A stretch of 64,000 nt of DNA. Origin: Plebeiibacterium marinum (lineage in GTDB: Bacteria > Bacteroidota > Bacteroidia > Bacteroidales > Marinilabiliaceae). Position 1 is the first letter of the stretch; every line of letters starts with the position of its first letter. Below are positions 4,350 through 52,806 of this stretch, in pieces. Made by a program: the position numbers and the translations under genes. The notes beneath the pieces are model-generated. The model had not been told where the DNA came from, did no database searches, and saw nothing but the letters and a program-made list of their open reading frames with translations. The DNA lies in NCBI RefSeq assembly GCF_026013615.1, contig NZ_JAPDPI010000013.1, positions 1-64,000 of the forward strand, in the 5' to 3' direction.

Positions 4350-5198
4350 CGTGAGTGGTGATTGATGAGCAGATAGCTACTAGCTGCCAGCCATAAGCTA
4401 CCACCATTGACCTTTGACTAATTGACTATTGACCATTGACCAATAACCAACCCCTTCCCTAAAGGCGAAGCCGTCCTAAAAGCTAAAGCGAAGCGTCCTA
4501 TTAGCTATTCGCTATCAGCTATCTATTACAAAAGGTAAGGAACCGATCTTATTTCCGTTTTTGATTATAAAGATCGGATCCTATAATATTATGCAATTGA
4601 TAGATATTTTCCCATAGACCATTGACTAATAACCATTGACAATTGACCATTGACATAGTGACTAATATCCAATAACCAACCCTTTCCCTAAAGGCAAAGC
4701 CGTCCTAAAAGCTAAAGCGAAGCGTCCTATTTACTATTCGCTATCAGCTCTCTATACAAAAGGTAAGGAACCGATCTTATTTCCGTTTTTGATTATAAAG
4801 ATCGGATCCTATAATGTTATACAATTGATAGATATTTTCCCATAGACCATCGGCTCCCCTACCTCTAAAAAACCATTAGCTACTCGCTACCAGCTATAAG
4901 CAACCACCATTGACTAATGACCATTGACTAACAACTAATGACTAATATCCAATAACCAATCCTTTTCCCTAAAGGCGAAGCCGTCCTATTAGCTAAAGCG
5001 AAGCGTCCTATTAGCTAAAGCGAAGCGTCCTATTAGCTATTCGCTATCAGCTAATTCACCTTTAACCTTTCATTAACTTTTCTTTCTCAGCCTTTTTTGC
5101 TTTCTTTAGCCACCCGAATTAGCTTCAAACACAATAATACATCAAAAAATATGTTTGAACTAAGGACATGAAAATTTTAGTACCATAATTGAATAAAA
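4350..5198. repeat. Non-coding tandem repeat array, 2.5 copies of a ~180-bp unit
   Basis: No gene is seen in these 849 bases. Two near-identical units lie at 4442-4621 and 4671-4849 (229-nt period, a few substitutions). A partial third copy at 4951-5053 keeps only the left half and internally duplicates a 22-nt piece (AGCTAAAGCGAAGCGTCCTA plus TT). Each full unit carries an inverted repeat CCGATCTT/AAGATCGG. The units are separated by runs of TGACCATTGAC-type short repeats (4405-4440, 4610-4665, 4905-4950), a motif that recurs in other gaps of this window (12620-12735, 19550-19570). Confidence 0.85.
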
Positions 5199-22116: not shown

Positions 22117-22177
22117 AAATGACCCCCTTGCTTTTTCGATTTAACCCATTTATGGAAATGAACTTTCTTTAATTTTA
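22117..22177 (+). promoter_or_regulatory. Candidate hybrid-regulator operator and promoter of the first GH95 gene
   Basis: AAATGACCC (22117-22125), 12 nt, GATTTAACCC (22138-22147), 22 nt, then TAATTTTA (22170-22177), a one-off match to the -7 box. The same half-sites at the same 12- and 22-nt spacings lie before the CE7 operon at 51427-51367 (minus strand). No -33 box is present, consistent with an activator-dependent promoter. The remainder of the 313-nt gap (22013-22116, 22178-22234) shows nothing else. Confidence 0.6.
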
Positions 22178-22234: not shown

Positions 22235-24709
22235 ATGAAGAATCTAATTTATTTTATGGGACTTATCATCACCCTGATGTCTTGTTCAAAAGATGATAGT
22301 AAAAAAGTGAATCTGCTGAAATTATGGTATTCAAAACCCGCAACTGCATGGGAAGAAGCCTTGCCCCTTGGCAATGGACGATTAGGGGCAATGGTTTTTG
22401 GAACCGTTGAAAAAGAACACCTGCAATTAAATGAAGAAACTGTATGGGCCGGAGAACCCGGAAATAACCTACCCAAAGGGTTCAGGGATGTTTTACCCCG
22501 GGTTAGAGAACTTATCTTTGCGGGAAGGTATAAGGAAGCTGAGGAATTAACAATGACAGTAACTCCCCGACATGCCCCGGAGTGGAATAACTATGGCATG
22601 CCATACCAAACTGTAGGAGATTTATTCATTGAATTTCCGCATCAACAAAATTACAGCAATTATTATAGAGAGTTGGATATAAGCAATGCTATAAGCAAAA
22701 CTTCGTACCAAGTAGATGGGACAACATTTAATCGTGAATATTTTATTTCTGCGCCGGAACAGGTTATGGTTGTTCGCTTAACCGCTAGTAAAAAAGGGCA
22801 AATTTCCTGTACCCTCAAAATGGATTCCCCACATTCTAAACATAAAGTATCTACTTTAAATAAGCAATTGATTTTAACAGGAAATGGAGAAAATGTAAAG
22901 AACAAAAAAGGGAAAATTCGTTTTTACACTTCTGTAAAACCTGTTCTTTCCGGTGGTGAACTGATACAGGGTGAAGACCACTTAAATATCAAAAATGCTG
23001 ACACTGTTACGGTTTTTTTATCTATTGGTACAAATTTTAAAAACTACAAGGATATTAGTGGCGATGAAACAAAAGTATCTGAAGGGTATTTAGCTAATGC
23101 TATTAATGAGCCATACGGAGCGCTAAAAAGCAACCATATTAAGGATTACAAACAATACTTTGATAGAGTGGAACTTGATCTTGGAATAACCGACTCCATA
23201 AAAAAACCGATAGATCAGCGAATTGTAGATTTCAACAAAGGCTATGATCCTCAATTGGTTTCACTTTACTTTCAGTTTGGGCGTTATTTATTAATATCAT
23301 CTTCCCGTCCGGGTACACAACCTGCCAATCTCCAAGGCATCTGGAACCACAAGAACAATCCTCCCTGGGATAGTAAATATACTGTAAACATTAACACTGA
23401 AATGAATTACTGGCCAGCGGAAGTGACTAATTTATCAGAGATGCACCAACCCCTGTTTTCAATGTTAAAGGATTTGTCAGTCACGGGACAGGAAACAGCG
23501 AAAGAAATGTATGGCGCCAGGGGCTGGGCAATGCATCATAATACGGACATATGGCGAATTACCGGACCTGTAGATGGTGCTTTTTATGGTATGTGGCCAA
23601 TGGGAGGAGCTTGGTTAACCCAGCACTTGTGGTATCATTATTTATATTCAGGTGACAAATCATTTTTAAAGGAAATTTACCCAATATTAAAAGGAGCGGC
23701 ATTGTATTATGCAGATGTTTTACAGCAAGAACCTGAAAATGGATGGATGGTAGTGTCCCCCTGTATGTCACCGGAAAACAAACATCCGCACCAAACCTCA
23801 ATGGCTGCAGGAAATACAATGGATAACCAGTTAGTTTTTGATGTTTTTTCGAATTTGATGGCAGCTTCTGATATATTAGATACAGATAAGGATTTTGCCA
23901 GGGAAGTAAAAGCACTATTTGATAAATTACCCCCCATGCAGATTGGAAAGCATAGCCAGTTGCAAGAGTGGCTTCAGGATTGGGACCGCACTGACGATCA
24001 TCACCGCCATGTATCTCATTTATACGGATTGTTTCCTGGAAGCCAAATTTCACCATTCTCCAACCCTGAATTATTCCAGTCAGCAAAAAATTCCCTGATA
24101 TACCGGGGCGACAAATCTACGGGATGGTCAATGGGATGGAAAGTAAATTTGTGGGCCAGGTTGCTGGATGGAAACAGGGCTTTCAAACTCATAAAAGATC
24201 AGCTATCACCTGCTCCAATTGAAAAAAAAGGGGAGCATGGAGGTACTTACCCTAATTTGTTTGATGCCCACCCCCCATTCCAAATTGATGGAAATTTTGG
24301 ATGCACTTCCGGTATTGCTGAGATGTTGCTACAATCATACGATGGCGATATTTATTTACTTCCGGCACTACCTGACGAATGGGAAAAAGGCTCTGTAAAG
24401 GGATTAAAAACTATAGGAGGTTTTACTATTGATATGATTTGGGACGATTGGCAGGTGAAACAGCTTGTTGTACATTCCTCTGTTGGCGGAAATTGCAGAC
24501 TCAGAATAATAAATAATTTAGAGGGAACTGTAGCTCTAAATAAAGTAAAGGATGAAATGGACAATCCTAATCCTTTGTTTTCAAAAACAAGAATAAAGAC
24601 CCCGATTATAAGCAAAAAAGCCTCTTTTCAATCGTTAGAATTACCTCACACTAATTTGGTTGAATTTGATACTGAAAAAGGCCAGAACTATGTATTTAGG
24701 GCGTTATAA
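22235..24709 (+). CDS. GH95 family glycoside hydrolase (lipoprotein)
   Basis: An 824-residue GH95 enzyme, a family of alpha-L-fucosidases and alpha-L-galactosidases. A lipobox places Cys at residue 17, so it is probably anchored to the membrane facing the periplasm or the surface. The family features are clear: opening [31 protein letters not shown] in the (alpha/alpha)6 barrel, MHHNTDIWR, the SPE segment in the SPCMSPEN context (candidate general acid) and [11 protein letters not shown] with the conserved Asp. It is a monocistronic unit at the left edge of the pectin locus with the same operator as the CE7 operon. A homologue of similar length lies at 52807. Confidence 0.9.
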   Translation: MKNLIYFMGLIITLMSCSKDDSKKVNLLKLWYSKPATAWEEALPLGNGRLGAMVFGTVEKEHLQLNEETVWAGEPGNNLPKGFRDVLPRVRELIFAGRYKEAEELTMTVTPRHAPEWNNYGMPYQTVGDLFIEFPHQQNYSNYYRELDISNAISKTSYQVDGTTFNREYFISAPEQVMVVRLTASKKGQISCTLKMDSPHSKHKVSTLNKQLILTGNGENVKNKKGKIRFYTSVKPVLSGGELIQGEDHLNIKNADTVTVFLSIGTNFKNYKDISGDETKVSEGYLANAINEPYGALKSNHIKDYKQYFDRVELDLGITDSIKKPIDQRIVDFNKGYDPQLVSLYFQFGRYLLISSSRPGTQPANLQGIWNHKNNPPWDSKYTVNINTEMNYWPAEVTNLSEMHQPLFSMLKDLSVTGQETAKEMYGARGWAMHHNTDIWRITGPVDGAFYGMWPMGGAWLTQHLWYHYLYSGDKSFLKEIYPILKGAALYYADVLQQEPENGWMVVSPCMSPENKHPHQTSMAAGNTMDNQLVFDVFSNLMAASDILDTDKDFAREVKALFDKLPPMQIGKHSQLQEWLQDWDRTDDHHRHVSHLYGLFPGSQISPFSNPELFQSAKNSLIYRGDKSTGWSMGWKVNLWARLLDGNRAFKLIKDQLSPAPIEKKGEHGGTYPNLFDAHPPFQIDGNFGCTSGIAEMLLQSYDGDIYLLPALPDEWEKGSVKGLKTIGGFTIDMIWDDWQVKQLVVHSSVGGNCRLRIINNLEGTVALNKVKDEMDNPNPLFSKTRIKTPIISKKASFQSLELPHTNLVEFDTEKGQNYVFRAL

Positions 24710-25101: not shown

Positions 25102-28100
25102 CTAAAATAACGCTTTACATACCTTATTATTAACCTTGACAATATATAAACCGTGTAAATCAAGCTGCTTAGTATAGCTTGAATTATTTGTCCTATCCAA
25201 ATAAATCAAATTGCCACATAAAGAATAAACAGCTATAACTGATTCTCCTTTTAAATTATCAATATGAAGCACTGAATCATAAATACTGACAAACACCTGA
25301 GCCTCATCAGAATCACTTACCGACAGACTCACATCGTTACTAACTTCTTCTGATAGCTCACTCAAGCTACCATATTCATTTGCTGCACACACACTGTATG
25401 TATAACTCACCCCTGGTTCTGCATCAAGATCGGTATAAGAAGGTTCTGTTGTAAATCCAATAACCTCTTCATTACGATAAACTACATAACAAATAGCATA
25501 ATCCGACAAATTCCAATCTAAATCATTATTATTTACCGACAATCCAGTAGGTTTTTCTACCGGTTCAAAATACATTCTGGGATTCCAGTTATCACTACCA
25601 CACAAAACATTATCATAGGTATAGTTAGCTGCTTCTTCCTGAGATAATACAGCCTGTAAACCGGAAACTGTTTCGCCACCTTCTCCTTCACTTTCGGTAT
25701 AAGTAGTTTTTCTATTCGACAAATCAATGGCGTTTCCTTCTGAATCCAAACTATTATACTCTGCAAATAATTTAGGTATCACTCCCATATTAGTCCAACC
25801 TTCAACAGCTGGTAAAATATTCATCTTTGTATTAAGATATACTGCAATTGGTTCATTATGCCAGGGACGCCCTAATTTCAAATTTCCGTCTGCTGCTGCT
25901 TCATTTCCATCAATAGTACAGCTATTAAAAACATATCCATATTTAGTTCCATTGTTATGAGCTGGTGCCACAATTACTGATCCACTGCGTACATTATACA
26001 AAGTACATTCATCTATAAACACATCCCCTGAACCGTATATATAATCTACAGCACCCTCAATATAACAATTGTAGGCGTAATGTCTATCATTTAAACCATT
26101 GGTTGTATACCAAGTATCCTGGAAAGATTTAAAATTACAATTATTAAAAGTAAATCTATCATTATTGGATCGCATAGCCAAAGCCATTGGTCCATTCTGG
26201 TAATCAACACCATAATCATTAACAAATGATATATTTTCAGCATAAAAGTCGCCTGCAGAAACAACTACAACTGCACAATCACTCATTCCCCAAAGTTCTT
26301 TTCTGAAATCCCAACCACTATCCGTTTCACTTGCACTACAGCATATTGCAAAAGAAATAATGGTATTTTCTTTATCCTGACCTATTAAATACATATATGG
26401 TTTATCCTCAGGAATGCGAACTAATTCATTGTATGTTCCTTTTTTAATAAATATCAGCCAAGGAGATGTTTGGTTTGAAGGAGCTGCATCAATGGCCTCC
26501 TGAACCGTGATATAATCCCCGCTTCCATCTTTTGCCACAACTGCGTCATACAGCCTGGCAATTGGCTGTGGCCGGTTCATAGTACTAAAAGATAAAGTAA
26601 GGCCACTAAAGGAGTTACCCGATTTATCTGTCAATGCCCCATCCGGTACCGTAAAAGTATATTCTGTGTCATACTCAAGTTTGGTATAGCTGAATGTTAC
26701 CGTTTTTGAGCCAAAACTTGGGGAAAGAACCGTTGAGCCAAGTGTACAGTTACCTGCACCAGCCATCACCGGCTCATCAAAAGTCAGCACAATGGAACCA
26801 TTGGCCGAAGCATTGGTGGCTCCCTCTGTAGGTACTGTCGATATTAGTGTGGGTGCTGTTTGGTCGTTTACAACAACTTGATCTGCAAACACAAAAACAT
26901 TTGTAATAGCAGTTCCGTCAACATCTGTAGCGTTCCCTATTTCGGCACTTGATGTGTCGGCAATCCATCTCACGTACACCTTTGCCTGTCCCTCTGCATC
27001 TTCAGGTAGCGTAACATTTAAATCAGCCCATGACGCCCCCCAAACTGCTGAAAGGTCTGCATTTCCCAATTGGGTAAAGTTTGTCCCGTCTAACGAATAT
27101 TGAATGGTCATTACCGAGTATCCGTGGTACGATCCAGAAAGCATAGAGTTAACCTGTATGTTTTCATATCCCACGGTGGAGAACGAGGCTTGATAGGCCC
27201 GTGGCGTTGCAAATTCAGATGTAGATGCCCAAAACTGAGCACATGCATAACCTGGCGAGAATGAACTGGAAGTGCGGGCCAGCCAGCCGGTTGTAGATCC
27301 ATCATTTTTCACAACTGAAAACATACCTGTATTGTCCGTTGCAGAAAAATAATCAGCAGACCTGTCACTTGTTGGGTCTTTTTCGGAAAAATCCCATCCC
27401 ACAATAAATGGGACTTCATCAAAATTTGCTATATAAGCTTTGTCCTCATTTACTAATACAGTGCGAATCAAATCAGTAGTGTTATCTTCCCAGTTTAAAA
27501 AGTTGGCTACAACATTTGGCTCTGCAGTCACCGTAACAATTGTTCCTGCCTCATACCTACCTCCCGTAGGTTCAGGGCTTAATGAAACTTTTCCCCAATC
27601 ACAACCATTAACCTCTACATTAAACGCATAGGTTGTTTTTGCATTAAAGACAGCTTTTACACTTACATCTCCATTAATTGTGAAAATGTATGGATTTTCA
27701 GAAGATAATACAGCTCCAGTATTACCATCCTGCCACTCAACAAACTCATATCCAAAATTATTGGTTGCCGTTAATGTAACCTCATCCCCTTCATTATATG
27801 TACCTGACGTTGGTGCAACCTCCCCTGCTGCTTCTTCCGATAAAGAAACAGTCAGCTCTGCTGCAGCTGTCAACTGTTTTAACCAACGAGGATCCCCAAT
27901 GATACCGCCGGTTGTACTTGCAGTAGCTATAGGCGATGAAGACAATATTGTAAAATCTCCTGCATCAGCATTTGCAAAACCTATTTCGGTCAAACCTAAT
28001 GTTTCAAGGGAATTATCAGTAATAGAAGATGATGTGGCACTTGTTATATTATAACTCCCGTAATTAACCACAAGGTTGTTTTCGGCAGATAGGTTACCCC

Positions 28101-28854
28101 CGGTAGCAACAATTATATTGGGTAATGTAGTCGCTCCTGGTTCTGCAATAATATTATCGGTAAAGATATAATTTGAATTTGAGCTATAAAGATTGCGAAC
28201 ATTACATATAGCACGGCTATTATCCTTACCCCACTTAAATACTGTATTATTAGTAAATGTAAAAGTGAAATCATTACTGCTGTCTGTGGTTTGTGGATAG
28301 AAGAAACTTTCTCCGTTTAAGTAGTTATATAGTGTGGTATTAGTAACGCTTATAGAATTAACAATATGCTTTGTATAAATAAAGTTCCAACCATTATTGC
28401 CACAATCTTTTATTATACATTGATCAAATGTTATAGCGCCTATACTAAAACCTTCATTCCCGGTCCTTAAAAAACAACGGTTTACATTTTGAATCGTCAC
28501 ATTAGTAAATGCAAGTTCTGTAATATCCCCAATATTACCACTCATAAAATAATCTGATCCCCGGTCAATAGTAACCCCCTCAAACCTTAATCCACAGTTT
28601 GTAAGTGCATCGCCCATTGAAATCTGTTGGGTTATTGTTACATCGCCATCACCTGCGGCTTTTAGCGTTAAAACCTTATCGCTTTGAAAATTTATTCCTG
28701 AAGAATATGTGCCCGCTTCTAAAAGCAGGACATCGCCATCCATTGCATTTCCCATTGCTGCCTCTATTGTGGCAGGACTAACATTTATGGATGCCGCATA
28801 ACTTTGGATTACTGCAAGCATTAATCCCCAAAATAAAATGTAAACTTTTTTCAT
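25102..28854 (-). CDS. Multidomain secreted pectin methylesterase (CE8) with beta-helix, InlB-type repeats and T9SS tail
   Basis: A 1250-residue exported protein. Visible order: signal peptide (1-21); pectate-lyase-like beta-helix (about 22-330, DUF4957/DUF5123-like, ending GDPRW); two InlB-type bacterial repeats (about 335-480, pattern GEVAPTSGTYNEGDEVTLTA); a beta-sandwich (about 485-660); a Big_5/SbsA Ig-like domain (about 665-765); the CE8 pectin methylesterase (about 768-1090) with QDT, VDYIYGSG and LGRPW catalytic motifs; an Fn3-like domain; and a type IX secretion C-terminal tail (about 1180-1250). It should remove methyl esters from homogalacturonan at the cell surface or outside. The frame opens earlier at 28911; the ATG at 28854 starts a normal signal peptide. 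It has its own promoter and terminator. Confidence 0.88.
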   Translation of the reverse strand: MKKVYILFWGLMLAVIQSYAASINVSPATIEAAMGNAMDGDVLLLEAGTYSSGINFQSDKVLTLKAAGDGDVTITQQISMGDALTNCGLRFEGVTIDRGSDYFMSGNIGDITELAFTNVTIQNVNRCFLRTGNEGFSIGAITFDQCIIKDCGNNGWNFIYTKHIVNSISVTNTTLYNYLNGESFFYPQTTDSSNDFTFTFTNNTVFKWGKDNSRAICNVRNLYSSNSNYIFTDNIIAEPGATTLPNIIVATGGNLSAENNLVVNYGSYNITSATSSSITDNSLETLGLTEIGFANADAGDFTILSSSPIATASTTGGIIGDPRWLKQLTAAAELTVSLSEEAAGEVAPTSGTYNEGDEVTLTATNNFGYEFVEWQDGNTGAVLSSENPYIFTINGDVSVKAVFNAKTTYAFNVEVNGCDWGKVSLSPEPTGGRYEAGTIVTVTAEPNVVANFLNWEDNTTDLIRTVLVNEDKAYIANFDEVPFIVGWDFSEKDPTSDRSADYFSATDNTGMFSVVKNDGSTTGWLARTSSSFSPGYACAQFWASTSEFATPRAYQASFSTVGYENIQVNSMLSGSYHGYSVMTIQYSLDGTNFTQLGNADLSAVWGASWADLNVTLPEDAEGQAKVYVRWIADTSSAEIGNATDVDGTAITNVFVFADQVVVNDQTAPTLISTVPTEGATNASANGSIVLTFDEPVMAGAGNCTLGSTVLSPSFGSKTVTFSYTKLEYDTEYTFTVPDGALTDKSGNSFSGLTLSFSTMNRPQPIARLYDAVVAKDGSGDYITVQEAIDAAPSNQTSPWLIFIKKGTYNELVRIPEDKPYMYLIGQDKENTIISFAICCSASETDSGWDFRKELWGMSDCAVVVVSAGDFYAENISFVNDYGVDYQNGPMALAMRSNNDRFTFNNCNFKSFQDTWYTTNGLNDRHYAYNCYIEGAVDYIYGSGDVFIDECTLYNVRSGSVIVAPAHNNGTKYGYVFNSCTIDGNEAAADGNLKLGRPWHNEPIAVYLNTKMNILPAVEGWTNMGVIPKLFAEYNSLDSEGNAIDLSNRKTTYTESEGEGGETVSGLQAVLSQEEAANYTYDNVLCGSDNWNPRMYFEPVEKPTGLSVNNNDLDWNLSDYAICYVVYRNEEVIGFTTEPSYTDLDAEPGVSYTYSVCAANEYGSLSELSEEVSNDVSLSVSDSDEAQVFVSIYDSVLHIDNLKGESVIAVYSLCGNLIYLDRTNNSSYTKQLDLHGLYIVKVNNKVCKALF

Positions 28855-28895
28855 AAATAAATCATTTAGTTGAATAAAAACTTTTGTTTTCACAC

Positions 28896-28957
28896 CAAAT
28901 GTAAATCGCAAAAATTGGCGATAGGTATTTCATTTTACAATTACAATAGGGCTATAT
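28896..28957 (-). promoter_or_regulatory. Promoter of the giant CE8 gene with degenerate operator half-sites
   Basis: On the minus strand TACATTTG (28903 to 28896) is an exact -7 match 41 nt before the ATG. Upstream lie ATATAGCCC (28957 to 28949), 45 nt from the -7 box, and GAAATACC (28931 to 28924). These resemble the two half-sites of the operator seen at 22117 and 51427, but the inner spacing differs, so this is a weaker candidate. The rest of the 327-nt gap up to the GH28 terminator shows nothing else. Confidence 0.4.
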
Positions 28958-37122: not shown

Positions 37123-39144
37123 TTAATAACCATAAGAGTTTGTCAATTTCCCTTTTGATTCATAAATATCTTCGTAATAGATGGCATAAAAATGCCTGTA
37201 GTTACAAATGTTATTTCCCATTGAGTATTGCGACAGGCTGGTTGCAATTTCATCACCATGGCTTAATGTACCAAGGAAACTTGAGTAGTCGTAATGTGCA
37301 TACATTCCTGTACCTGCCAATAGTGTTTTTACAGGCCAATCAATGTAATATGTGCTGGTTCCCTCTTCGGGCTTAGCTGCTCTTTTAGGAAACCAGTCCA
37401 CTGACTCATAATCGGCACCAGGACTAGCCCCCAACTCCTCATAGTAATTTATAGAAGAAGGATCAATATACTCATCATCAGCATATCTATAATATACGGT
37501 TTCAGGAAAATCAGAAGGTTGATATGTTTTATCAAATATTTGTACCTGTTGTGTATGATCCAGCATCAGGCATATGGCTTTTTTCATATCCTCAATCTTA
37601 TCATACAATAATCCCCATCGTACTAAATCCTGTTTGCGGATAGACTCACAACCAAACTCCCACGCACGTTCGTTTACTATAGCCTCAAAGAAATCGGCAT
37701 CGTATTGTTGAATTTTTGAAGACCCTGCACCAAAAGCTCTTTCACGCACTTTTTCCAAAGCCTGGCGAGCAGACATTTTTGCTGTTGCATTCACGTTATC
37801 CGATCCGTTTAAAGCATACTCAGCTTCGGCAAACATTAAATAAATATCAGAATAACGCATTAATATCCAGTTGATACCTGTAGCAATACGGCTATTAGCT
37901 GTTTTATGCAAGGCCAAATAAGCATCTGAAGTCCAGTATATGCGCCATTTGGCAAAAGTTACACCTAGCGGGTTGTTTGATAATTCCTCAATATTATCTT
38001 TTGAGTAATTCCTCCATGTCAGAGTAACATCCCGACGGGTATCTTCACGATCGAATGAATAAAAATAATAAGCTGTTGAAGTCACATAAGAACCTCCAAA
38101 ACCACGGGCTCCATATTTTGTATTAGAAGCCACACTGTATCCCATCAATGAGCCAATATCACCATTGTTACCCATACCAAATGCCACTTCAAACAAGTTT
38201 TCATTTGATGCATTTTGTTGCTGGGCACAAACCGTTTTCCATATATTTTCATAATCAGGATCCAACTGATGAGGATTATCATCACTACCAATTACCTCTG
38301 CACATTGTTGAGCCGCTATGGCATAATACTCTCTCCAGTTTTGAACACGACCAACAAAATAACCACCACTTTCAGGAATAGTTGGATGATGCTCAATGGT
38401 TGTACTTTCAAATAAATTACCATCACGCAATGACCAACCTCCGGCAAACAAGGCTACTTTTGCCAATAATCCTTTAACATATCCTTTCGATATACGCTCT
38501 GAGGTTCCGTATTCGGTATTATCTCCTAACCATGGCACATAATCTACTGCTTCTTGCAAATCAGCTACCAGATATTTATAAATAGTATCGCGATCGGTTT
38601 TACTCATATACACATTTGAAAGGTCAGATTTGGATGACTCTGTTTTAAATGGAACATCGCCCCAATATCGCACTAACTCAAAATACACCATAGCACGTAG
38701 TGTTAATGCCTCTCCTAACATTGGTTTCATTTGAGATGCTGCGCTCTCTAAAATGGGTGAGTTTCTGAATCCATCAACTGCTGTAGATGCCAGTTCGGCC
38801 ATTTCGAATAGAGATTGCCAGCGTGTTGTTCTGTTGTACTGATCATCGTAATAATTACCGGCACCTTCATCCCTTGAGGTGGAGTTATAAGTAGTATTAT
38901 TAAACTCACGATTTGATTCTATATCGGTAACTCCCTGCCAGTTTACAGACAGCTTTTGTCCGTAAATATAAGTATCGGTCATTTTACCATAAAGTCCCAT
39001 AACAGCAGCCTCGGCCATTGATGCTGTTTGATATACCGTTTCGGAACTTAATTTTGAAGGAGAACTTGTTTCCAGAAAATCATCTTCGCAAGAAACTACT
39101 CCCAAAGTTAAAATTATTGATAAGTAATATATTATTCGTTTCAT
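37123..39144 (-). CDS. SusD/RagB family outer-membrane glycan-binding lipoprotein
   Basis: A 673-residue SusD homologue. It has a lipobox (GVVSC, Cys at about 19), the N-terminal TPR-like SusD region (SSPSKLSSETVYQTASMAEAAVMGLYG) and the C-terminal RagB/SusD part with NERAWEFGCESIRKQDLVRWG. It caps the SusC transporter encoded 11 nt upstream and captures pectic oligosaccharides at the surface. Slightly longer than average for the family. Substrate is inferred from the enzymes of the operon. Confidence 0.96.
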   Translation of the reverse strand: MKRIIYYLSIILTLGVVSCEDDFLETSSPSKLSSETVYQTASMAEAAVMGLYGKMTDTYIYGQKLSVNWQGVTDIESNREFNNTTYNSTSRDEGAGNYYDDQYNRTTRWQSLFEMAELASTAVDGFRNSPILESAASQMKPMLGEALTLRAMVYFELVRYWGDVPFKTESSKSDLSNVYMSKTDRDTIYKYLVADLQEAVDYVPWLGDNTEYGTSERISKGYVKGLLAKVALFAGGWSLRDGNLFESTTIEHHPTIPESGGYFVGRVQNWREYYAIAAQQCAEVIGSDDNPHQLDPDYENIWKTVCAQQQNASNENLFEVAFGMGNNGDIGSLMGYSVASNTKYGARGFGGSYVTSTAYYFYSFDREDTRRDVTLTWRNYSKDNIEELSNNPLGVTFAKWRIYWTSDAYLALHKTANSRIATGINWILMRYSDIYLMFAEAEYALNGSDNVNATAKMSARQALEKVRERAFGAGSSKIQQYDADFFEAIVNERAWEFGCESIRKQDLVRWGLLYDKIEDMKKAICLMLDHTQQVQIFDKTYQPSDFPETVYYRYADDEYIDPSSINYYEELGASPGADYESVDWFPKRAAKPEEGTSTYYIDWPVKTLLAGTGMYAHYDYSSFLGTLSHGDEIATSLSQYSMGNNICNYRHFYAIYYEDIYESKGKLTNSYGY

Positions 39145-39155
39145 TTTACTAACAC

Positions 39156-42100
39156 TTAAAAAGTTACATTAATACCAAACAATAGTGTTTTTGCTTTTGG
39201 ATAAGCAGAGTAATCTACTCCCGGAGTCAAAGGTGTTGAGCGGCGGGTATCTACTTCCGGATCTTGTCCTGTATATTTTGTCCAACACTTTAAATTGTTT
39301 GCAGTTACATATACACGTAGTTTTTTCATCAAAACCTTTTCTGATATGCTTTTAGGTAAAGTATACCCCAAAGTCAGGTTACTCAGTCGTAAAAACGAAC
39401 CATCTTCAATAGCCCAATCGGTTAAAACAGTTGAATTAGCCCTGGGATGCCAGATCCGTGCATCTTTATTTAACTCTTTTAGCAATTCAGGATTGGCATT
39501 TTCTCCAAACATGATGTTATATCCTGTTGCAGGATCGATGGTTGTAAAACGATTATCCAAACTCATTACCGACAATAGATTCTGATATCTTTTTGATCCG
39601 CTAAATGAGGTAAAGTCAATTTTATTTGCGTTATAAATATCATTTCCATACGACCAATTAAACTGTGCGCCAAAGTCGAATCCTTTATAACTGGCATTCA
39701 TTGAAAATCCACCGGTATGTTTTGGTTGGGCATGTCCGATGACTTTCCTATCCTCATCCGGAGAGATTTCGGTACCCTCACCACTTAACTTTTTAAGTTT
39801 CATATGTCCGGGACCAAAATAATCACCCGAATTGGTAAACACCGATGAAGCATCTACAACACCTTCTTTCAGATCCCATTTGTTAGTAGTTTCATTAAAA
39901 GTAAAATCATCAAAAGTGTACATACCATCAGAAACATAACCATACATTTCACCAACCGGCTGACCAACCACAGCACGAAAATCATCGCTACCTAAATTAA
40001 GTCCCCATCCCGAAGATGCTATTAACTCATCTGAACCATCCAGCTCTTCAATTTTATTCCTGTTAAATGAAATATTAAAACTGGCCGAAAGTTTAAAATC
40101 TCTATTATCAACAATATATCCTGTAGCTGCTATTTCAATACCCCGGTTAGAAGTACTTCCTACATTTTGATACTGCTTATCATATCCTGAATTCGAAGGT
40201 AATGCCACACCCAGGATCAAATCCTTCACTTCGGTTTTGTAGGCATCAATATTAACCGACAATCTTTGATCAAAAAATCCTAAATCCAGACCAATATTAG
40301 AAGAAATGGTTGTTTCCCAGGTTAAGTCCTCATTTTTTAATACCGACGAAGTAACCAAAGCACTTTGCGCCTCATCGTTAATATAATACAGGTTTCTGTA
40401 ATTATCCTCAAAACTATACTCTTGTCGCCAGTAAGAACCCACGCGGGCATTACCTACTGCACCATAACTCAAACGAAGTTTTGCATTTGACATCCAGTCT
40501 TTAACACCATCCATAAAAGCTTCATCCGACAGTCTCCAGGCAAAGGCTGCTCCCGGAAAATAACCCCAACGATTATTCGGTGCGAACACGTTTTTACCAT
40601 CGGCGCGTAGCGTTAAAGTAAGAAGGTAACGATCGTACAAGTTATAGTTTAAACGACCAAAATAAGAATTGGTACGAGATGGTTCATTTATGGTAGTATA
40701 GGTAGGAGATGCTGTACCATAATTCCACATTGCCAGTACATCATCGGCCGAAAAATCGGAAGGGAAAAATTTAGACATCACTTCCATATCTTTTCTCTCG
40801 GAACTATACAATTCCTGCCCTGCCAACAACTTGAATTTATGCACCTTATTATTTAAGTCAAAATCATATGTCAATGTATTTTGAACAGAATACCTAAAGC
40901 CTTTTTGATCGGTTCGCTTAGCTACCGGCTGGCCACCATTAGAACTGGCTTCGCCTGTTTTTTTAAGCCAGATATTATCGGTATAATTTTTCTCATAATC
41001 GTAAGATCCTTTTGTTGTATACCTTAAACCTTTAATAATGTCCCACGATAAACTTGCATTGTAAGTTTGTCTGAACTTATTTTGCTCCTTATATTCATTA
41101 ACCGTATTAAAAATAGGATCATTAAGCGAGCTCAAAGCCTCTGCCGAAGTCACATCTTCATTCCCTACCAACTGATCTTCGGATAAATACGACAAACTAC
41201 GAACCGGGGCATACTTAACTCCATCACGTAGTTTTTTCCCACTTGATACACTAGGCCCTTCTATGGTAGTATTAGATAATCTTGAGGTTAAATTAAATGA
41301 AAGTTTTCTGCCAATCTTTTTGCTTAACTTCAATGTTACGTAATCTCTTTTATAGGCAGAATTTAACATGATAAAATCCTCATCATCACGCGTATAATTA
41401 AGATTATACTTAAAATCCTTATCTCCGCCATTTAAGCTGACACTAAGATTTTTTTGCACACCTGTATTTCCATACAACTGATCTTGCCAATCAATTCCTT
41501 CTACCCCTTTGTATATATCGATATCTTCCCACAAACCATAACTATTGGTAAATGCAGAATTGGTACTGGTACTTGGATCGAGTTCCCTTTGATAATAAAC
41601 AAACTCATAGGGAGACAAAACATCATTTAAATTATATGCCTTTTTAATTCCCACATATGAATTAATGTTTATTTCTGTTTTCCCTTCCTTACCTGATTTA
41701 GTTGTAATTAAAATTACACCATTAGCACCCTGAGCACCATAAATAGCTGTTGAAGAGGCATCTTTTAACACATCAATAGTCTCAATATCACCAGGAGGTA
41801 TATCTCCAATGCTACTAACCTGGAAGCCATCAACTATATATAAAGGTGAATTATCCTGGGTAATAGATCCCCCACCACGCACACGGATTTTCACTTCTGC
41901 ATCAGGCGAACCTTCTGTTACGGTAACATTAACCCCGGCCAAACGACCTGAGATAGCCTGCATGGCAGATGTAGCCGGTATATCACTCAACGCCTCAGCG
42001 CTAACTGAGGCCACCGAACCAGTAAGGTCTCTTCGCTTTGTTGTTCCATAACCTACAGCAACAACTTCCTCTAAACCAATAAACTCATCTTTCAACACTG

Positions 42101-42428
42101 TATTAATTACTTTCCTTCTATCCACACTAATTTCCTGCGTTTTCATACCAATAAAAGAAAATACGAGTATTCCGTCAACAGGAACATCATTTAAAATATA
42201 TTGGCCGTTTACATCAGTAATAGTACCGGTATTTAACCCTTTTACAGCAATTGTAACACCCGGAATTACCATACCATTTTCATCAGAAACTTTCCCTGTA
42301 ACCGTAATTTTCTCTCCTCCTTGAGAAAACATGATTGAGGAATACATAAGAATTGAAATCAAAACCAGAAATTTCAATTGTTGATTCTTCCACAAGTCAA
42401 AGAATCTCTTTGACAGATAATTTTTCAT
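39156..42428 (-). CDS. SusC/RagA TonB-dependent outer-membrane transporter
   Basis: A 1090-residue SusC homologue. After the signal peptide comes a carboxypeptidase-regulatory-like domain (about 40-120, GKVSDENGMVIPGVTIAVKG), then a TonB-box-bearing plug (VVAVGYGTTKRRDLTGSV, and YGAQGANGVILITTK) and a 22-strand barrel ending in an aromatic residue (GINVTF). It imports oligosaccharides in a TonB-dependent way with SusD. It lies second in the operon, 32 nt after the esterase gene. Confidence 0.97.
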   Translation of the reverse strand: MKNYLSKRFFDLWKNQQLKFLVLISILMYSSIMFSQGGEKITVTGKVSDENGMVIPGVTIAVKGLNTGTITDVNGQYILNDVPVDGILVFSFIGMKTQEISVDRRKVINTVLKDEFIGLEEVVAVGYGTTKRRDLTGSVASVSAEALSDIPATSAMQAISGRLAGVNVTVTEGSPDAEVKIRVRGGGSITQDNSPLYIVDGFQVSSIGDIPPGDIETIDVLKDASSTAIYGAQGANGVILITTKSGKEGKTEININSYVGIKKAYNLNDVLSPYEFVYYQRELDPSTSTNSAFTNSYGLWEDIDIYKGVEGIDWQDQLYGNTGVQKNLSVSLNGGDKDFKYNLNYTRDDEDFIMLNSAYKRDYVTLKLSKKIGRKLSFNLTSRLSNTTIEGPSVSSGKKLRDGVKYAPVRSLSYLSEDQLVGNEDVTSAEALSSLNDPIFNTVNEYKEQNKFRQTYNASLSWDIIKGLRYTTKGSYDYEKNYTDNIWLKKTGEASSNGGQPVAKRTDQKGFRYSVQNTLTYDFDLNNKVHKFKLLAGQELYSSERKDMEVMSKFFPSDFSADDVLAMWNYGTASPTYTTINEPSRTNSYFGRLNYNLYDRYLLTLTLRADGKNVFAPNNRWGYFPGAAFAWRLSDEAFMDGVKDWMSNAKLRLSYGAVGNARVGSYWRQEYSFEDNYRNLYYINDEAQSALVTSSVLKNEDLTWETTISSNIGLDLGFFDQRLSVNIDAYKTEVKDLILGVALPSNSGYDKQYQNVGSTSNRGIEIAATGYIVDNRDFKLSASFNISFNRNKIEELDGSDELIASSGWGLNLGSDDFRAVVGQPVGEMYGYVSDGMYTFDDFTFNETTNKWDLKEGVVDASSVFTNSGDYFGPGHMKLKKLSGEGTEISPDEDRKVIGHAQPKHTGGFSMNASYKGFDFGAQFNWSYGNDIYNANKIDFTSFSGSKRYQNLLSVMSLDNRFTTIDPATGYNIMFGENANPELLKELNKDARIWHPRANSTVLTDWAIEDGSFLRLSNLTLGYTLPKSISEKVLMKKLRVYVTANNLKCWTKYTGQDPEVDTRRSTPLTPGVDYSAYPKAKTLLFGINVTF

Positions 42429-42460
42429 AAATTTTTGATTTTAAATTAATAATATTTGAA

Positions 42461-43393
42461 TTACAAAACTTCTTTTCTTGTTAAATATCCCATCTCATTC
42501 ATCCAGGCTTCACATAAGTCTGTCCATAAGTTTGTGGACCCCGGATTGTTGCGCAGAGCAATTGAATGCTTTCCTTTAGAAAAAACATGCAAACAAGATG
42601 GTATGCCTGCAGCTTGTAAGGCCTGATAGTAACGCAGGCTGTTCATTGGGTTTACTACCGGATCATCAGAAGCACAGGCTATAAAAGCAGGAGGCGTATG
42701 AACTCCGACATTCAGCTCTCCTGAGAATAAAGATTTCATTTTCTCATCTGGATTTTCTCCCAGCAATGCCTTTCTGCTCCCCTTATGAGCATCTTGCTGC
42801 ATGCTGATGGCTCCTGATATTGAAATCTGAAAATCAGGAACAAAAGTGAAACGATCAATAGAATCACCGGCACAGGAATAATCATTTGTTAAAGTGGATA
42901 AATTGGATACCAAACCACCACCTGCAGAACATCCCATCGCACCAATCCTTTCCGGATCCATATTCCATAAGGCAGCATGAGAACGAACCAGTTTCATTGC
43001 TCTCTGAGCATCAGTCAAAGGACCAAACGCACTATCGGTTAAATCCGGGGAAACGGGCAAACGATATAATACAACAAAAGCATTAACCCCAAAGGTATTA
43101 AACCACTTTGCCAACTGGATGCCGGCAATATTATAAGCTTCTTTACGATAACCTCCCGGAGGGAAAATCAATACGGCCGAACCTGTATTTTCTTCTTTGG
43201 AAGTAAAATAACAATACATGCCCGGAACATCAATCTGCGTTATTCTTTCACGCTCTTCTATTCGGGGCAATTCCATTCCCCTGGAATTTGGCATATTATA
43301 CTCGCCCCATAGCGGCATATACTCCTGTGAGTAAATACTTCCACTGAACCATAATATAACACTACCTAATATCATTAACTTTATATGTTCCAT
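42461..43393 (-). CDS. Exported alpha/beta-hydrolase esterase, first gene of the main operon
   Basis: A 310-residue secreted serine esterase. Signal peptide (1-22, ending YSQ); oxyanion-type segment FPPGGYRK; nucleophile elbow GCSAGGG (serine at about 155); an acidic residue in CASDDPVVNP; and the late SKGKHSIAL histidine complete a triad. It belongs to the BD-FAE/acetylxylan esterase-like group. In this context it probably removes acetyl groups from pectin. It is unusual that an esterase, not SusC, opens the operon. Confidence 0.8.
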   Translation of the reverse strand: MEHIKLMILGSVILWFSGSIYSQEYMPLWGEYNMPNSRGMELPRIEERERITQIDVPGMYCYFTSKEENTGSAVLIFPPGGYRKEAYNIAGIQLAKWFNTFGVNAFVVLYRLPVSPDLTDSAFGPLTDAQRAMKLVRSHAALWNMDPERIGAMGCSAGGGLVSNLSTLTNDYSCAGDSIDRFTFVPDFQISISGAISMQQDAHKGSRKALLGENPDEKMKSLFSGELNVGVHTPPAFIACASDDPVVNPMNSLRYYQALQAAGIPSCLHVFSKGKHSIALRNNPGSTNLWTDLCEAWMNEMGYLTRKEVL

Positions 43394-43564: not shown

Positions 43565-43595
43565 GGGGTATTTCACAACATAGGAAGGGTTGTTT
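43565..43595 (-). promoter_or_regulatory. Operator-like bipartite site between esterase and hybrid regulator
   Basis: On the minus strand AAACAACCC (43595 to 43587), 12 nt, GAAATACCCC (43574 to 43565). Half-sites and 12-nt spacing follow the pattern AAAnnACCC-N12-GAnnTAnCCC of the sites at 22117 and 51427. It sits 86 nt from the regulator start and about 140 nt from the esterase -7 box, so it may act on either gene. Confidence 0.5.
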
Positions 43596-43680: not shown

Positions 43681-46600
43681 ATGAAAAAACTGAGTACATA
43701 CTCTATTGTTCTTTTTGTTTGCATCATATCTTTTGTCAAAACAAGCGGCCAGGTTGTTTCTACCCTTAATCATTATTTGGTTGAAGACGGGCTTCCCCAT
43801 AATTTAATTAATGATATTATTCAGGATAAAAAAGGTTTTATATGGATTAGTACGTTTAATGGTTTATGCAAGTATGATGGTTATGCATTTCACCAGTACA
43901 CACCTCATGCTTACGACTCAACAATCTTAAAAACCAACAGAATAGGCAGGCTAACTGAAGACAGTCTGGGCAGAATATGGATGGAATCAAAAGCTTTTGG
44001 TCCTATTATTAATTGCTTTGACCCGGAAACTGAAAAGTTTTGGGACAAAAAAACGGATAAGGATAAACTGACCGAGAACTTTAATTTATCACGTATAGTT
44101 CCTACAAAATCGGATATGGTTTGGCTACTTTCCGACTCTGCAGGATGTATTTGTGTTTCAGGTAAAGATTACTTAGTAAGTTATTTTAATTCGTCTCAAA
44201 ATAATTTAAATGCAACAGGCGTATACAATGTACACCAGGATCTGCAAAATAATACGTGGTTATTGACAAACAACGGGATTACCACGTTCCCAAAGAATAA
44301 TTTTAAAACCCCTGCTCACTTTTTTGACAAAGAACCAGGAAAAAACACCCCTTTTTACGAGTATCTGGAGTTTGATGATGAAATATGGTTTGGAGGTATT
44401 TCCGGAATTATTGCCAAATACTCCAAATCGAATAAATCATTCAGCATACAAAAGCTGCCTATTGATGGAAATATAATTAAACTAATCCCATTAAATAACT
44501 TTAGCGTATTAGCAGTAACAAACAACAAAGGTTTTTGTACGATACATCGGTATTCAAGGAACACTAAAGTTTATAATTCTGCAACTTATCCTCATTTGAA
44601 TATAAGGCATCTACATCCTTTAACAATTACAAACGACTATCAGTTTTGGTATTACAACAGCTCAAAACCTGGCATTAACCTTTTTAATTTTAATGATAAC
44701 AGCAATACATTTTTTCCCGCCAAAAGATCAGACAATTCTAATTCTTCCAAACAATCAACTCCTTATGTTCTAACAAATAGTAAAGGACAGATCTGGGTAC
44801 AAGCTCTTGATGGAGGCTTTTCTTTATATAATCAGGAATCAAATACGCTTGTTCCTTTAAAATCGGAATACAAAGAACCAGAAATGGCCTTTTCAAATGA
44901 TTTCAGAGTTGCCTTGTTTGACAAACAGGACAATTTATGGTTTAATAGCTATGCCGCAGGATTGGGAAAAATAGTTTTTAGTAAAAACAATTTTGAAACC
45001 CTAAAAATAAAAAGCCAAATCAGCAGTAACATCAGGGCCATATACCAACTAAAGAACAATTACATTCTTGTTGCCAATAAAGACAACCAAATATTAGTTT
45101 TTGATAAAGACTTAAACTTTACCGGACAGCTATCATCTAATGGTAAACTGGCTGATAATTCAAATTGGGGAAAACCGGCTTACAATTTTTTTGAAGATTC
45201 AAAGGGAAATCTATGGATTGCCACAAGAGGGGATGGAGTATATAAGTTAACGCCCAATAAAAAATTATTTAATTATTCGGTTTCTCATTTCAAGCACAAT
45301 CCGAATAATATCCATAGCCTTAGCAATGACCAGGTATACTCAATATTTGAAGATAGCAATAAACGTATATGGATTGGGACTCTCGACGGGCTTCATCTTG
45401 CCTTAAACAATAAAGATTCCATCCAGTTTATTAATATTCATAATAAGTTTAAAATAAAAGATATTGGCAAAAGAAGAATCAGGTGTGTAAATGAAACCCC
45501 TTCAGGATTGCTGTGCTCAGGATCCATGAATGGTTTATTAATTTTTAATCCAGACTCTCTTAATAGTAAAAATTTAAGCTGGAAAACTTATAATAAACAG
45601 ATATTACCAAACAAAGGATTAGGAAGTAATGATGTTATTGATTTATGTGTATCAAAATCTAAAAAGGTATTTATTGCCACAGCTTATGGAGGCATAACAC
45701 GTATTGACTCTGTTGATAACTTTGGGTATCCTGTAGTCTTTAAAACTTACACAAAGAAAGACGGTTTGCCTTCAAATAATATCCTCTCGTTAGTTGAGGA
45801 TTTAAATGGGAAATTATGGATTACCATGGACTTTCAGATATGCAGGTTTGACCCTAACAAGGAGCACATTGAAGTATTTCCGGAAATAAAAACCAAGATT
45901 CACGGCAGAAACTTTTCTGAAGCCACAAGGTATTGTCTCAATTCCGGAGAACTGCTTTTTGGCTATAGCAACGGAGTTATTCATTTTTTTCCCGACCAAA
46001 TTAAAACAAACAATTATTCGCCATATATTTCATTATTGAGTATTCGGAAATTCAACAAAAGGGGGTCATCCCAAAATCAAATCACAACTTTAAATGGTGT
46101 CGACAACGGCCACCCCGTTGTGTTTTCCCATCAGGAAAACTTTTTTCATATTGACTATGCAGCACTGGATTACGACAACCCTTCAAACATAAAGTATGCA
46201 TACAAATTAGAGGGTTTTGATAACTACTGGAATTATGTAGATAAACAAAGAACGGCTATTTATACAAATGTTCCTAAAGGAGACTACCTTTTCAAGGTCA
46301 AATCTACCAATAGCCAGGGTGTGTGGTCGAATAACCAAAGGGAATTACCCATTACCATTTTACCTTCATTTTGGGAAACAAACTGGGCGTATGCTCTTTA
46401 TATTTCCATCATGTTAATTATTCTATTAACCACCAATTACACATTAATAACCATTTACAAACTCAAATCAAATATTAATGTGGAGAGAAAAATGTCTCGT
46501 TTAAGACAAAAATTCTTTACGGATATCTCTCATGAAATACGAACCCCTTTAACCATGATTACAGGTCCTATTGATTACCTGATTAATGATCCCCGCACAC

Positions 46601-48048
46601 CTAAAAACGTAAAAAACCAATTGAGTTACGTAGCCCAAAGCTCATCGCGCATGTTACGACTTGTAAACCAAATTCTTGATTTCAGAAAAGTACAGGAGAT
46701 GAAATTGAAAGTATCTGAAATTGAAATCGGAACCTTTGTCAAGGAAATATATAATGATTTTATTGAAATTGCCCATGAACAGGATATTTCTTTTAATTTT
46801 GAAAACCACGCTGAAGGTGTAAAAATTTGGGCAGACCATAAAAGCCTTGAAAAAATCGTGATGAACCTTCTTTCCAATGCTTTTAAATATACTCCGCAGG
46901 GAAAATCAATTACAGTCAGCATTTTTTCTGATGAAAAAACTGCAACCATAAATGTTAGTGATCAGGGCATTGGTATTTCAAAAGATGTTATTAACAAGCT
47001 ATTTACCCGTTTTGTTTCTTTTAGCGAAGATGAAAATAAACCGAGCACGGGGATTGGCCTATCCATAGTTAAAGAGGAAGCAGACAAGCACAAAGCCAGG
47101 GTAACAGTAAATAGTCAACCAGGTAAAGGAAGCGTATTTTCGGTACAGTTTAAAACCGGGAAAAACCACTTTCCTGACGATATAGAATTTATAAATACTA
47201 ATCCTGCTGATCAAAGCAACCCCGAAGTATCAAAAAATCAAATAACCACAAAAATAAAGATCCCCAATAGCAGTAAAGTTAAGGTGCTGATTGTTGAAGA
47301 TGACCATGAACTAAGGTCTTTCATTAAAAACATTTTGGAACAAGACTATGAAATATTAACCGCTGAAGACGGGTTTGCAGGTTTTAACATTGCTGTTGAG
47401 CATTGTCCTGATTTTATTATCAGCGACATTATGATGCCCAAAATAAATGGTATCGATCTGCTTAAAAAACTCAGGGACGATATTAGAACCAGTCATATCC
47501 CAATCATACTATTAACGGCAAAAGCAAATATCGAAAGCAAACTGGAAGGCTTAACCTATGGAGCTGATGATTATATAACCAAGCCCTTTAGTGTTCCTTA
47601 TTTTAAAGCAAGGATTGAAAATTTGTTAAACCAACGAAAGAGGTTACATGAAATATTTACCCGGGGAGACAATGCCGAATTTAAAGAGTTTAAACCCAAG
47701 CCCTTCCTGATTACAAACCAGGACGAGGCTATAATGGAAAAAATAATACATATCATTGAGCAAAACATGGACAACGGTGAGTTTTCTGTTGAGGATTTAG
47801 CCTCTCATATTGGTTTAAACAGAACAACTATGTTTTACAAAATAAAAGGTTTAACCGGTTTTTCACCTGTAGAATTTGTAAGAGATTTTCGCCTGAAACG
47901 AGCTGCTCAAATGATTACCGACAGTCAGCTGCTTATTAAAGAAATAGCTTTTATGACAGGATTCCAGGACCTGAAGTATTTTGGAAAATGCTTTAAAAAG
48001 AAATACGAAATGACTCCAATGGAATACAGGAAAAGTAACTTGAAATAG
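43681..48048 (+). CDS. Hybrid two-component system sensor/regulator (HTCS)
   Basis: A 1455-residue one-protein signalling system: signal peptide (about 1-24); a large periplasmic sensor made of Reg_prop beta-propeller repeats (about 30-800, repeats such as DKKGFIWISTFNGL); a Y_Y_Y domain (about 835-895); a membrane segment (about 902-925); HisKA with DISHEIRTPL (His about 951); HATPase (NLLSNAFKYTP, TGIGLSIV); a receiver with phospho-acceptor Asp at about 1249 (ISDIMMPK); and a C-terminal AraC-type DNA-binding domain (about 1355-1455). It senses a released oligosaccharide in the periplasm and activates the surrounding locus. It is divergent from the operon it most likely controls. Confidence 0.97.
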   Translation: MKKLSTYSIVLFVCIISFVKTSGQVVSTLNHYLVEDGLPHNLINDIIQDKKGFIWISTFNGLCKYDGYAFHQYTPHAYDSTILKTNRIGRLTEDSLGRIWMESKAFGPIINCFDPETEKFWDKKTDKDKLTENFNLSRIVPTKSDMVWLLSDSAGCICVSGKDYLVSYFNSSQNNLNATGVYNVHQDLQNNTWLLTNNGITTFPKNNFKTPAHFFDKEPGKNTPFYEYLEFDDEIWFGGISGIIAKYSKSNKSFSIQKLPIDGNIIKLIPLNNFSVLAVTNNKGFCTIHRYSRNTKVYNSATYPHLNIRHLHPLTITNDYQFWYYNSSKPGINLFNFNDNSNTFFPAKRSDNSNSSKQSTPYVLTNSKGQIWVQALDGGFSLYNQESNTLVPLKSEYKEPEMAFSNDFRVALFDKQDNLWFNSYAAGLGKIVFSKNNFETLKIKSQISSNIRAIYQLKNNYILVANKDNQILVFDKDLNFTGQLSSNGKLADNSNWGKPAYNFFEDSKGNLWIATRGDGVYKLTPNKKLFNYSVSHFKHNPNNIHSLSNDQVYSIFEDSNKRIWIGTLDGLHLALNNKDSIQFINIHNKFKIKDIGKRRIRCVNETPSGLLCSGSMNGLLIFNPDSLNSKNLSWKTYNKQILPNKGLGSNDVIDLCVSKSKKVFIATAYGGITRIDSVDNFGYPVVFKTYTKKDGLPSNNILSLVEDLNGKLWITMDFQICRFDPNKEHIEVFPEIKTKIHGRNFSEATRYCLNSGELLFGYSNGVIHFFPDQIKTNNYSPYISLLSIRKFNKRGSSQNQITTLNGVDNGHPVVFSHQENFFHIDYAALDYDNPSNIKYAYKLEGFDNYWNYVDKQRTAIYTNVPKGDYLFKVKSTNSQGVWSNNQRELPITILPSFWETNWAYALYISIMLIILLTTNYTLITIYKLKSNINVERKMSRLRQKFFTDISHEIRTPLTMITGPIDYLINDPRTPKNVKNQLSYVAQSSSRMLRLVNQILDFRKVQEMKLKVSEIEIGTFVKEIYNDFIEIAHEQDISFNFENHAEGVKIWADHKSLEKIVMNLLSNAFKYTPQGKSITVSIFSDEKTATINVSDQGIGISKDVINKLFTRFVSFSEDENKPSTGIGLSIVKEEADKHKARVTVNSQPGKGSVFSVQFKTGKNHFPDDIEFINTNPADQSNPEVSKNQITTKIKIPNSSKVKVLIVEDDHELRSFIKNILEQDYEILTAEDGFAGFNIAVEHCPDFIISDIMMPKINGIDLLKKLRDDIRTSHIPIILLTAKANIESKLEGLTYGADDYITKPFSVPYFKARIENLLNQRKRLHEIFTRGDNAEFKEFKPKPFLITNQDEAIMEKIIHIIEQNMDNGEFSVEDLASHIGLNRTTMFYKIKGLTGFSPVEFVRDFRLKRAAQMITDSQLLIKEIAFMTGFQDLKYFGKCFKKKYEMTPMEYRKSNLK

Positions 48049-49028: not shown

Positions 49029-49033
49029 AATTC

Positions 49034-50020: not shown

Positions 50021-50026
50021 AGTAAT

Positions 50027-51450: not shown

Positions 51451-51513
51451 AAAATACCCCTTTCTTTTCTGCAAAACACAACCGCCTATATACCAATCTA
51501 CAATCTACTTTTG
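51451..51513 (+). promoter_or_regulatory. Candidate promoter of the CE8-GH95 operon
   Basis: AAAATACCC (51451-51459) fits the first half-site pattern AAAnnACCC, and TACTTTTG (51506-51513) is an exact -7 match 46 nt downstream; the second half-site is poor. The leader to the ATG at 51745 would be about 230 nt because the repeat at 51541-51703 lies between. Confidence 0.35.
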
Positions 51514-51540
51514 TTAATCAGTTGCAGCAAGAAAACTCCT

Positions 51541-51703
51541 GTTTTATAGTGACTCCCATCGCTCACCCCGAACCCCTAAAGGGGAAATCCCTCGCTCTAT
51601 GCGGGTTGATGGTTCTCCCATTAGAGCCTTTCCCGAACTTGTATTCGGGAAAGTAAGAGAGTGTATGGAGGGAAGAAGTTGAACTTTTCTTGCCAACACT
51701 AAC
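51541..51703. repeat. Dispersed intergenic repeat in the leader of the CE8-GH95 operon
   Basis: The block has several short hairpins, the best being TTTCCCGAA (51629-51637) with TTCGGGAAA (51644-51652), then TGTATGGAGG as at 41-55, and ends with the reverse complement (51681-51703) of the 23-mer at 21917-21939. No gene is seen in the 401-nt gap 51344-51744 apart from this repeat and the two divergent promoters. Confidence 0.7.
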
Positions 51704-51744
51704 AAGTAACAAGTCATATTAATAACAATAAAAACAAAAAGAAA

Positions 51745-52800: not shown

Positions 52801-52806
52801 AATCTC

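Follow-up and report, generated by a model that had tools for sequence, protein, structure and literature searches.

The pectin locus of Plebeiibacterium marinum raises the question of which protein reads a bipartite element shared by two of its distant promoters, and how many of its transcription units carry that element. We examined this in the window, the whole 64-kb stretch of DNA that was analysed. The locus is a pectin PUL holding GH95, PME, GH28, GH43, GH88, SusD, SusC, esterases, CE7, two further pectinesterases, a second GH95 (GH95b, paralogous to the first) and an HTCS. Transcription units and operons were deduced from gene order (Table 1), and the same-strand genes of the target 5 unit run on to about 29182.

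Table 1. Genes, operators and promoter elements of the pectin locus (window coordinates; minus-strand elements are given in reading direction)
Feature	Position	Strand	Sequence, basis or remark
GH95 glycoside hydrolase, target 1	22235-24709	+	Pfam PF22124, 6.1e-186
Multidomain pectinesterase (PME), target 3	25102-28854	-	Pfam domains, scanned as 25102-28911
Esterase, SusC, SusD; presumed operon, target 5	37123-43393	-	Gene order and domains
HTCS	43681-48048	+	Propeller sensor, Y_Y_Y, HisKA, HATPase, receiver and AraC-type HTH_18 in one chain (Pfam)
CE7/AXE1 esterase, BD-FAE esterase, pectinesterase; presumed operon, target 2	48081-51343	-	
Pectinesterase and second GH95 (GH95b); presumed operon, target 4	51745-55350	+	
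Operator 1 (GH95)	22117-22147	+	AAATGACCC-N12-GATTTAACCC; read directly
Operator 1 half-sites	22117-22125; 22139-22147	+	AAATGACCC; ATTTAACCC
GH95 -7 box	22170-22177	+	TAATTTTA; 22 nt past operator 1
Operator 2 (CE7 operon)	51427-51397	-	AAATGACCC-N12-GATTTAGCCC; read directly
Operator 2 half-sites	51427-51419; 51405-51397	-	AAATGACCC; ATTTAGCCC
CE7 operon -7 box	51374-51367	-	TAACTTTG; 22 nt past operator 2
Operator 3 (PME)	28957-28927	-	ATATAGCCC 28957-28949; AAATGAAAT 28935-28927, degenerate
PME -7 box	28903-28896	-	TACATTTG; 23 nt past operator 3
Operator 4 (pectinesterase-GH95b operon)	51452-51482	+	AAATACCCC 51452-51460; AAACACAAC 51474-51482, degenerate
Pectinesterase-GH95b -7 box	51506-51513	+	TACTTTTG; 23 nt past operator 4
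Operator 5a (esterase-susC operon, distal)	43595-43565	-	AAACAACCC, AAATACCCC; no -7 box at 22/23 nt
Operator 5b (susC operon, proximal)	43477-43447	-	AAATGACTA, ATGTGCCAT; weak, second-best match of the region
susC operon -7 box	43423-43416	-	TAGTTTTG; 23 nt past operator 5b

The sequence-only reading had described AAATGACCC-N12-GATTTARCCC-N22 followed by a -7 box before GH95 (22117-22177, plus strand) and before the CE7 operon (51427-51367, minus strand). When both sites were re-read, the pattern was exact in each at these coordinates, and the spacers differed in sequence while matching in length. The half-sites lie on one strand as a direct repeat, as proposed, with the consensus AWWTRVCCC (halves AAATGACCC and ATTTARCCC), which extends by eye towards TTGTAAWWTRVCCC. 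The proposed period of 21 nt had to be revised, since the half-sites align on CCC and therefore repeat at 22 bp. In a period test over seven regions, one of which was a GH2 promoter beside another HTCS in genome G521, the mean best score was 19.2 at 22 bp, compared with 14.7 at 21 bp, 15.4 at 23 bp and 6.7-11.8 at 18-20 and 24-26 bp. Without the GH2 region, the means worked by hand were about 18.9 (22 bp), 15.0 (21 bp) and 15.5 (23 bp).

We scanned the window with a half-site model built from four sites, the two reported ones and two from other genomes. The CE7 (32.4) and GH95 (29.5) sites ranked highest, followed by 28957 on the minus strand (18.0), 51452 on the plus strand (17.5), 43595 on the minus strand (14.8), one coding match (14.6) and 43477 on the minus strand (13.9); the next intergenic match scored 11.7. 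Every one of the six top intergenic matches is directed into PUL transcription units. Because 3 of 20 block-shuffled windows also reached 17.5, the weaker sites are not significant alone over 64 kb. Promoter regions were tested separately, with a model trained on the GH95 and CE7 sites alone. None of 1,000 shuffles was as good as the PME region, and p was 0.002 for the pectinesterase-GH95b operon and 0.004 for the susC operon, the latter through its distal site. With this two-site model, the operator was not found in the promoter region of the HTCS gene (p = 0.177), four operon-internal starts had no site (p = 0.139-0.516), and 15 control starts gave one p of 0.025, the others being at least 0.069. 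The operator had been claimed for two transcription units; both are real, but five inferred units carry sites, and what was taken for a pair of sites is very probably a regulon of five promoters, to which the HTCS gene does not belong.

The second half-sites are degenerate at PME, pectinesterase-GH95b and proximal susC. Before the susC operon, the distal operator is strong but lies about 140 bp upstream of the -7 box, and the two sites score similarly (proximal 12.2 versus distal 12.8); the proximal one has a counterpart at 14302 in a paralogous locus, C55, of the sister species G050. At PME, the position of operator and -7 box makes ATG 28854, not TTG 28911, the likely start. In the pectinesterase-GH95b operon, a leader of about 230 nt (51514-51744) contains a GC-rich, imperfect palindrome-like stretch, and this region is indel-variable in G050.

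The distance from operator to -7 box was 22 nt at GH95 and CE7 and 23 nt at PME, pectinesterase-GH95b and proximal susC, both offsets having been picked after sites showing them had been seen. We took the Bacteroidota primary-sigma consensus for the -7 and -33 elements from PMC7366714. The latter three promoters and CE7 match TAnnTTTG at all six specified letters and GH95 at five of six. The -7 boxes reported earlier are thus present at both GH95 and CE7, but the final letter of the GH95 box is A, its single departure from TAnnTTTG. The reported lack of a -33 element was borne out at both promoters: no TTTG occurs across the 53 nt before the GH95 -7 box, and the sole TTTG at CE7 ends 36 nt before its box. 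It is the downstream half-site that occupies the -35/-33 position, 22-23 nt before the -7 box.

The strict motif is rare. At up to three mismatches, the window held two matches (GH95 and CE7) against 0.08 expected by chance, and one of 100 shuffled controls also gave two. Across the organism's own genome (5.62 Mb, 187 contigs, 98% complete), the strict pattern occurred twice at zero mismatches, never at one or two, and three times at three mismatches, all three inside ORFs; equal-quality matches at unrelated genes did not occur. Among 71 genomes of the family, 11 had a match at up to two mismatches, namely our genome (two sites), G050 (two sites) and nine others, whose 10 sites all fell in ORFs, with four matches in the reversed-pattern control. 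A genome scan with the full architecture for further operators returned four extra matches at three mismatches versus six in the reversed control. A sequence-profile search of the genome, in which 150 of 2,682 first-look candidates were scored, gave 17 further matches with E values of 0.063 or worse. Two of these are operators within the window; of the other 15, nine were inspected, eight of them lying in ORFs and the ninth, L127, lying where its 3-kb piece shows no ORF of 80 aa. As the strict, architecture and profile searches gave no convincing distant site, we confine the regulon claim to the locus, although weak members may exist outside it.

We then compared the locus with that of the sister species G050 (genus Plebeiibacterium, Marinilabiliaceae, NCBI), whose HTCS is 97% identical. 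G050 holds operators 1 and 2 with one mismatch each; its CE7-side site falls in a mechanically extended ORF, and in our genome the CE7 ORF begins downstream of the site. The blocks from operator to -7 box differ at 10 of 339 columns (1 of 62 from operator 3 to its -7 region). Outside the blocks, these intergenic regions differ at 134 of 890 columns when gapped ones are dropped and at 218 of 974 when they are counted. Between the two genomes, the half-sites were conserved no better than other positions of the blocks (6 changes in 108 columns versus 4 in 231), and on these counts we rejected sister-species conservation as evidence singling out the half-sites. As a side observation, stretches at window positions 51527-51569 and 7-49 match other places on the G050 contig at 91%.

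With the G050 copy of the locus itself set aside, four relatives of the HTCS reaching at least 50% identity were found: one at the C55 locus of G050 (63%) and those of G991 (52%), G521 (52%) and Aestuariibaculum sediminum (51%). A 49% HTCS fragment in G349 was left out because it runs to the contig edge. In all four, the best match in 24-40 kb (the two best in G521) is intergenic and precedes a presumed susC, a pectinesterase, or PL11 and susC. The C55 locus (L048) is a second pectin PUL with its paralogous HTCS and its own operator copies: the best matches are AAATGACCC-N13-AAATGCCCC at 14472 and another at 8258, with the weaker one at 14302, and the sites at 14472 and 14302 precede the presumed susC, a 1,113-aa ORF adjoining a SusD gene. 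In A. sediminum, the top match of 24 kb, ATTTACCCC-N13-ATTTGACCA-N22-TATTTTTG, lies ahead of a pectinesterase gene that diverges from the HTCS gene. In G991, the highest-scoring match of 40 kb, ATATACCCC-N13-ATTTGACCC-N22-TAACTTTG (score 29.6), has the same setting. In G521, the two best of 36 kb precede a PL11-type rhamnogalacturonan lyase and susC; beside the HTCS itself no site was found (p = 0.147). For both G521 and G991, the prediction was written down ahead of the scan of their PUL promoters. At that point, G521 was already known to lack a site beside its HTCS and to have its top match on the other side next to another HTCS, and its two best matches came from the part scanned afterwards; nothing of G991 had been seen. 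In our own genome, the next-best HTCS match, among the matches listed, stands at 32%.

The HTCS at 43681 had been named as the natural candidate regulator, and the recurrence of the operator in all four of these loci gives that assignment comparative support. Because the operator recurs with the HTCS in sister and distant genomes, we take this HTCS as its reader, and give this identification of the element, as an operator of the HTCS encoded at 43681-48048, a probability of roughly 85%.

Conservation at related loci held in four of four cases at 50% identity or more, but in only three of eight at 38-42%. In the latter range, the region beside the HTCS reached p ≤0.01 in G212, G202 and G298, while G375 (0.088), G556 (0.10), G099 (L060; 0.30), and G273 and G233 (0.8-0.9) failed. 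From about 36% identity downwards, most of the scanned HTCS relatives had no site, and a second HTCS of G521 (37% identity) passed with p = 0.007. Among 57 other HTCS loci (what is left of 73 rows after removing 2 that were too short, 10 named ones, 3 duplicates and G099), three reached p 0.01 (L037, L038 and L042). These p values rest on 300-2000 shuffles and shift between runs, L037 giving 0.002 in one and 0.023 in another. In another HTCS group (L030, L033-L035, L037 and L039), we noticed loosely similar repeats (ATTTGTCAC and alike), followed 23-24 nt on by TATATTG or TATCTTG. Beside a different HTCS of G521 (L144+L145), a site of the same geometry at position 21445 stands before the GH2 gene, an indication that HTCS promoters in general may share this arrangement.

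A wider generalization is offered tentatively, and we think it rather doubtful as it stands: Bacteroidota HTCS promoters might form one class of fixed geometry (half-sites repeated at 22 bp, then 22-23 nt and TAnnTTTG), with the HTCS standing in for the -33 contact and the half-site set by a code in the second HTH, x-x-K-Y-F going with ...CCC and x-x-R-Y-F without it. In a post hoc comparison of 52 of 72 loci, which leaves out two same-locus entries and 18 loci with neither form, match scores were higher for K (n = 28) than for R (n = 24) loci (rank-sum p = 6e-5, kinship ignored; p = 4e-4 without four close relatives). A p of 0.02 or less was reached by 8 of the 28 K loci and 1 of the 24 R loci. 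Counter to such a code, the K loci L078 and L043 show no trace of a site, and L042, which was left out, passes.

A regulator other than this HTCS, either a free-standing AraC-family protein or another HTCS, could in principle read the same operator. The genome counts 15 matches to the HTCS, some other HTCS loci show loosely similar repeats that make cross-recognition possible, and a pair of ECF sigma and FecR genes also lies in the Aestuariibaculum locus, roughly 12 kb away from the operator. We nevertheless consider this unlikely, because the site tracks the HTCS across orders and the strict motif is missing from the remaining genome. Confinement of the strict motif to one locus within a 5.6-Mb genome also bears on the idea that the element is part of the promoter, an unusual upstream element read by the sigma factor or polymerase. 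The constant distance to the -7 box would suit that idea, but the two half-sites with a 22-bp period and the copy without a -7 box at 43565-43595 add to the case against it, and it appears highly improbable.

The sites might instead be repressor operators, with polymerase kept from -33 by the HTCS or some other protein as long as pectin is absent. The downstream half does overlap the -33 position, and PMC11253607 considers that HTCSs departing from the inhibitory motif may act as repressors. However, GH95 and CE7 have no -33 element to block, and the receiver of the HTCS carries a SHIP motif (S1271-H-I-P1274), an S/CHIP motif of the kind that goes with inhibited DNA binding in the absence of phosphate (PMC11253607). 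The unphosphorylated HTCS is therefore expected not to bind, and repression seems distinctly unlikely. Next to no weight falls on chance or on recent duplication of one promoter: the GH95 genes of the locus are paralogous, as duplication would have it, but the spacers are unrelated and it is GH95b that carries the weak site, while chance has to contend with the low window expectation (0.08) and with recurrence in distant genomes.

Under the preferred reading, an operator of the HTCS, the periplasmic propeller would bind a pectin fragment, and phosphorylation would then free the AraC-type domains. Two such domains would sit in tandem on one DNA face, the downstream monomer taking the place of the missing -33 element and recruiting RNA polymerase, while the -7 box would be read by the primary sigma factor. 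The perfect pairs at GH95 and CE7 would be expected to respond most strongly. We infer activation, the ligand and the dimer from sequence features.

The arrangement resembles that of Escherichia coli AraC, whose I1-I2 half-sites form a direct repeat two turns apart, with the downstream one at -35, and which activates as a tandem dimer. Here, too, the halves are directly repeated and the downstream half lies in the -35/-33 region. Unlike AraC, the present system has the sensor kinase fused into one membrane protein and the TAnnTTTG promoter of Bacteroidota; no looping site is shown here, though a distal operator precedes susC.

Closer relatives are the HTCS operators of Bacteroides thetaiotaomicron, predicted in 2013 as direct repeats with an average distance of 21 bp and an unconserved spacer, and read as dimers on one DNA face (Ravcheev et al., PMC3878776). 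Of HTCS_Rgu-1, HTCS_Rgu-2 and HTCS_Man in that study, two serve rhamnogalacturonan/pectin. As in those systems, a direct repeat stands before several operons of one polysaccharide locus beside an AraC-type HTCS. The present operators differ in their 22-bp period and AWWTRVCCC half-site, as compared by description rather than letter by letter, and in occurring in marine Marinilabiliaceae and another order. They also keep a fixed 22-23 nt to the -7 box, and the HTCS section of PMC3878776 gives no such distance. SusR operators are likewise direct repeats before PUL genes of Bacteroides, but have 67 or 77 bp between repeat centres, compared with 22 bp here, and the DNA-binding domain of SusR does not significantly resemble other known regulators (PMC3878776). 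A literature search by title and abstract opening brought up no publication that treats this operator or the pectin locus of P. marinum; the supplementary alignments of 2013 lay outside the comparison. The element is thus of a known kind, an HTCS direct-repeat operator, and what is new is the half-site with its 22-bp period in this lineage, the fixed -7 distance and the recurrence in another order.

The rule of half-site, 22 bp, 22-23 nt and -7 box led to pectin promoters in G521 and G991, which belong to a different order, and could tie orphan HTCS regulators to their targets in environmental Bacteroidota without expression data. The locus also offers matched, presumably pectin-inducible promoters, and gel shifts have been reported for HTCS response-regulator fragments (PMC11253607). 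Elsewhere in the window, positions 4374-5053 hold an internal duplicated repeat block whose copies are 78-100% alike.
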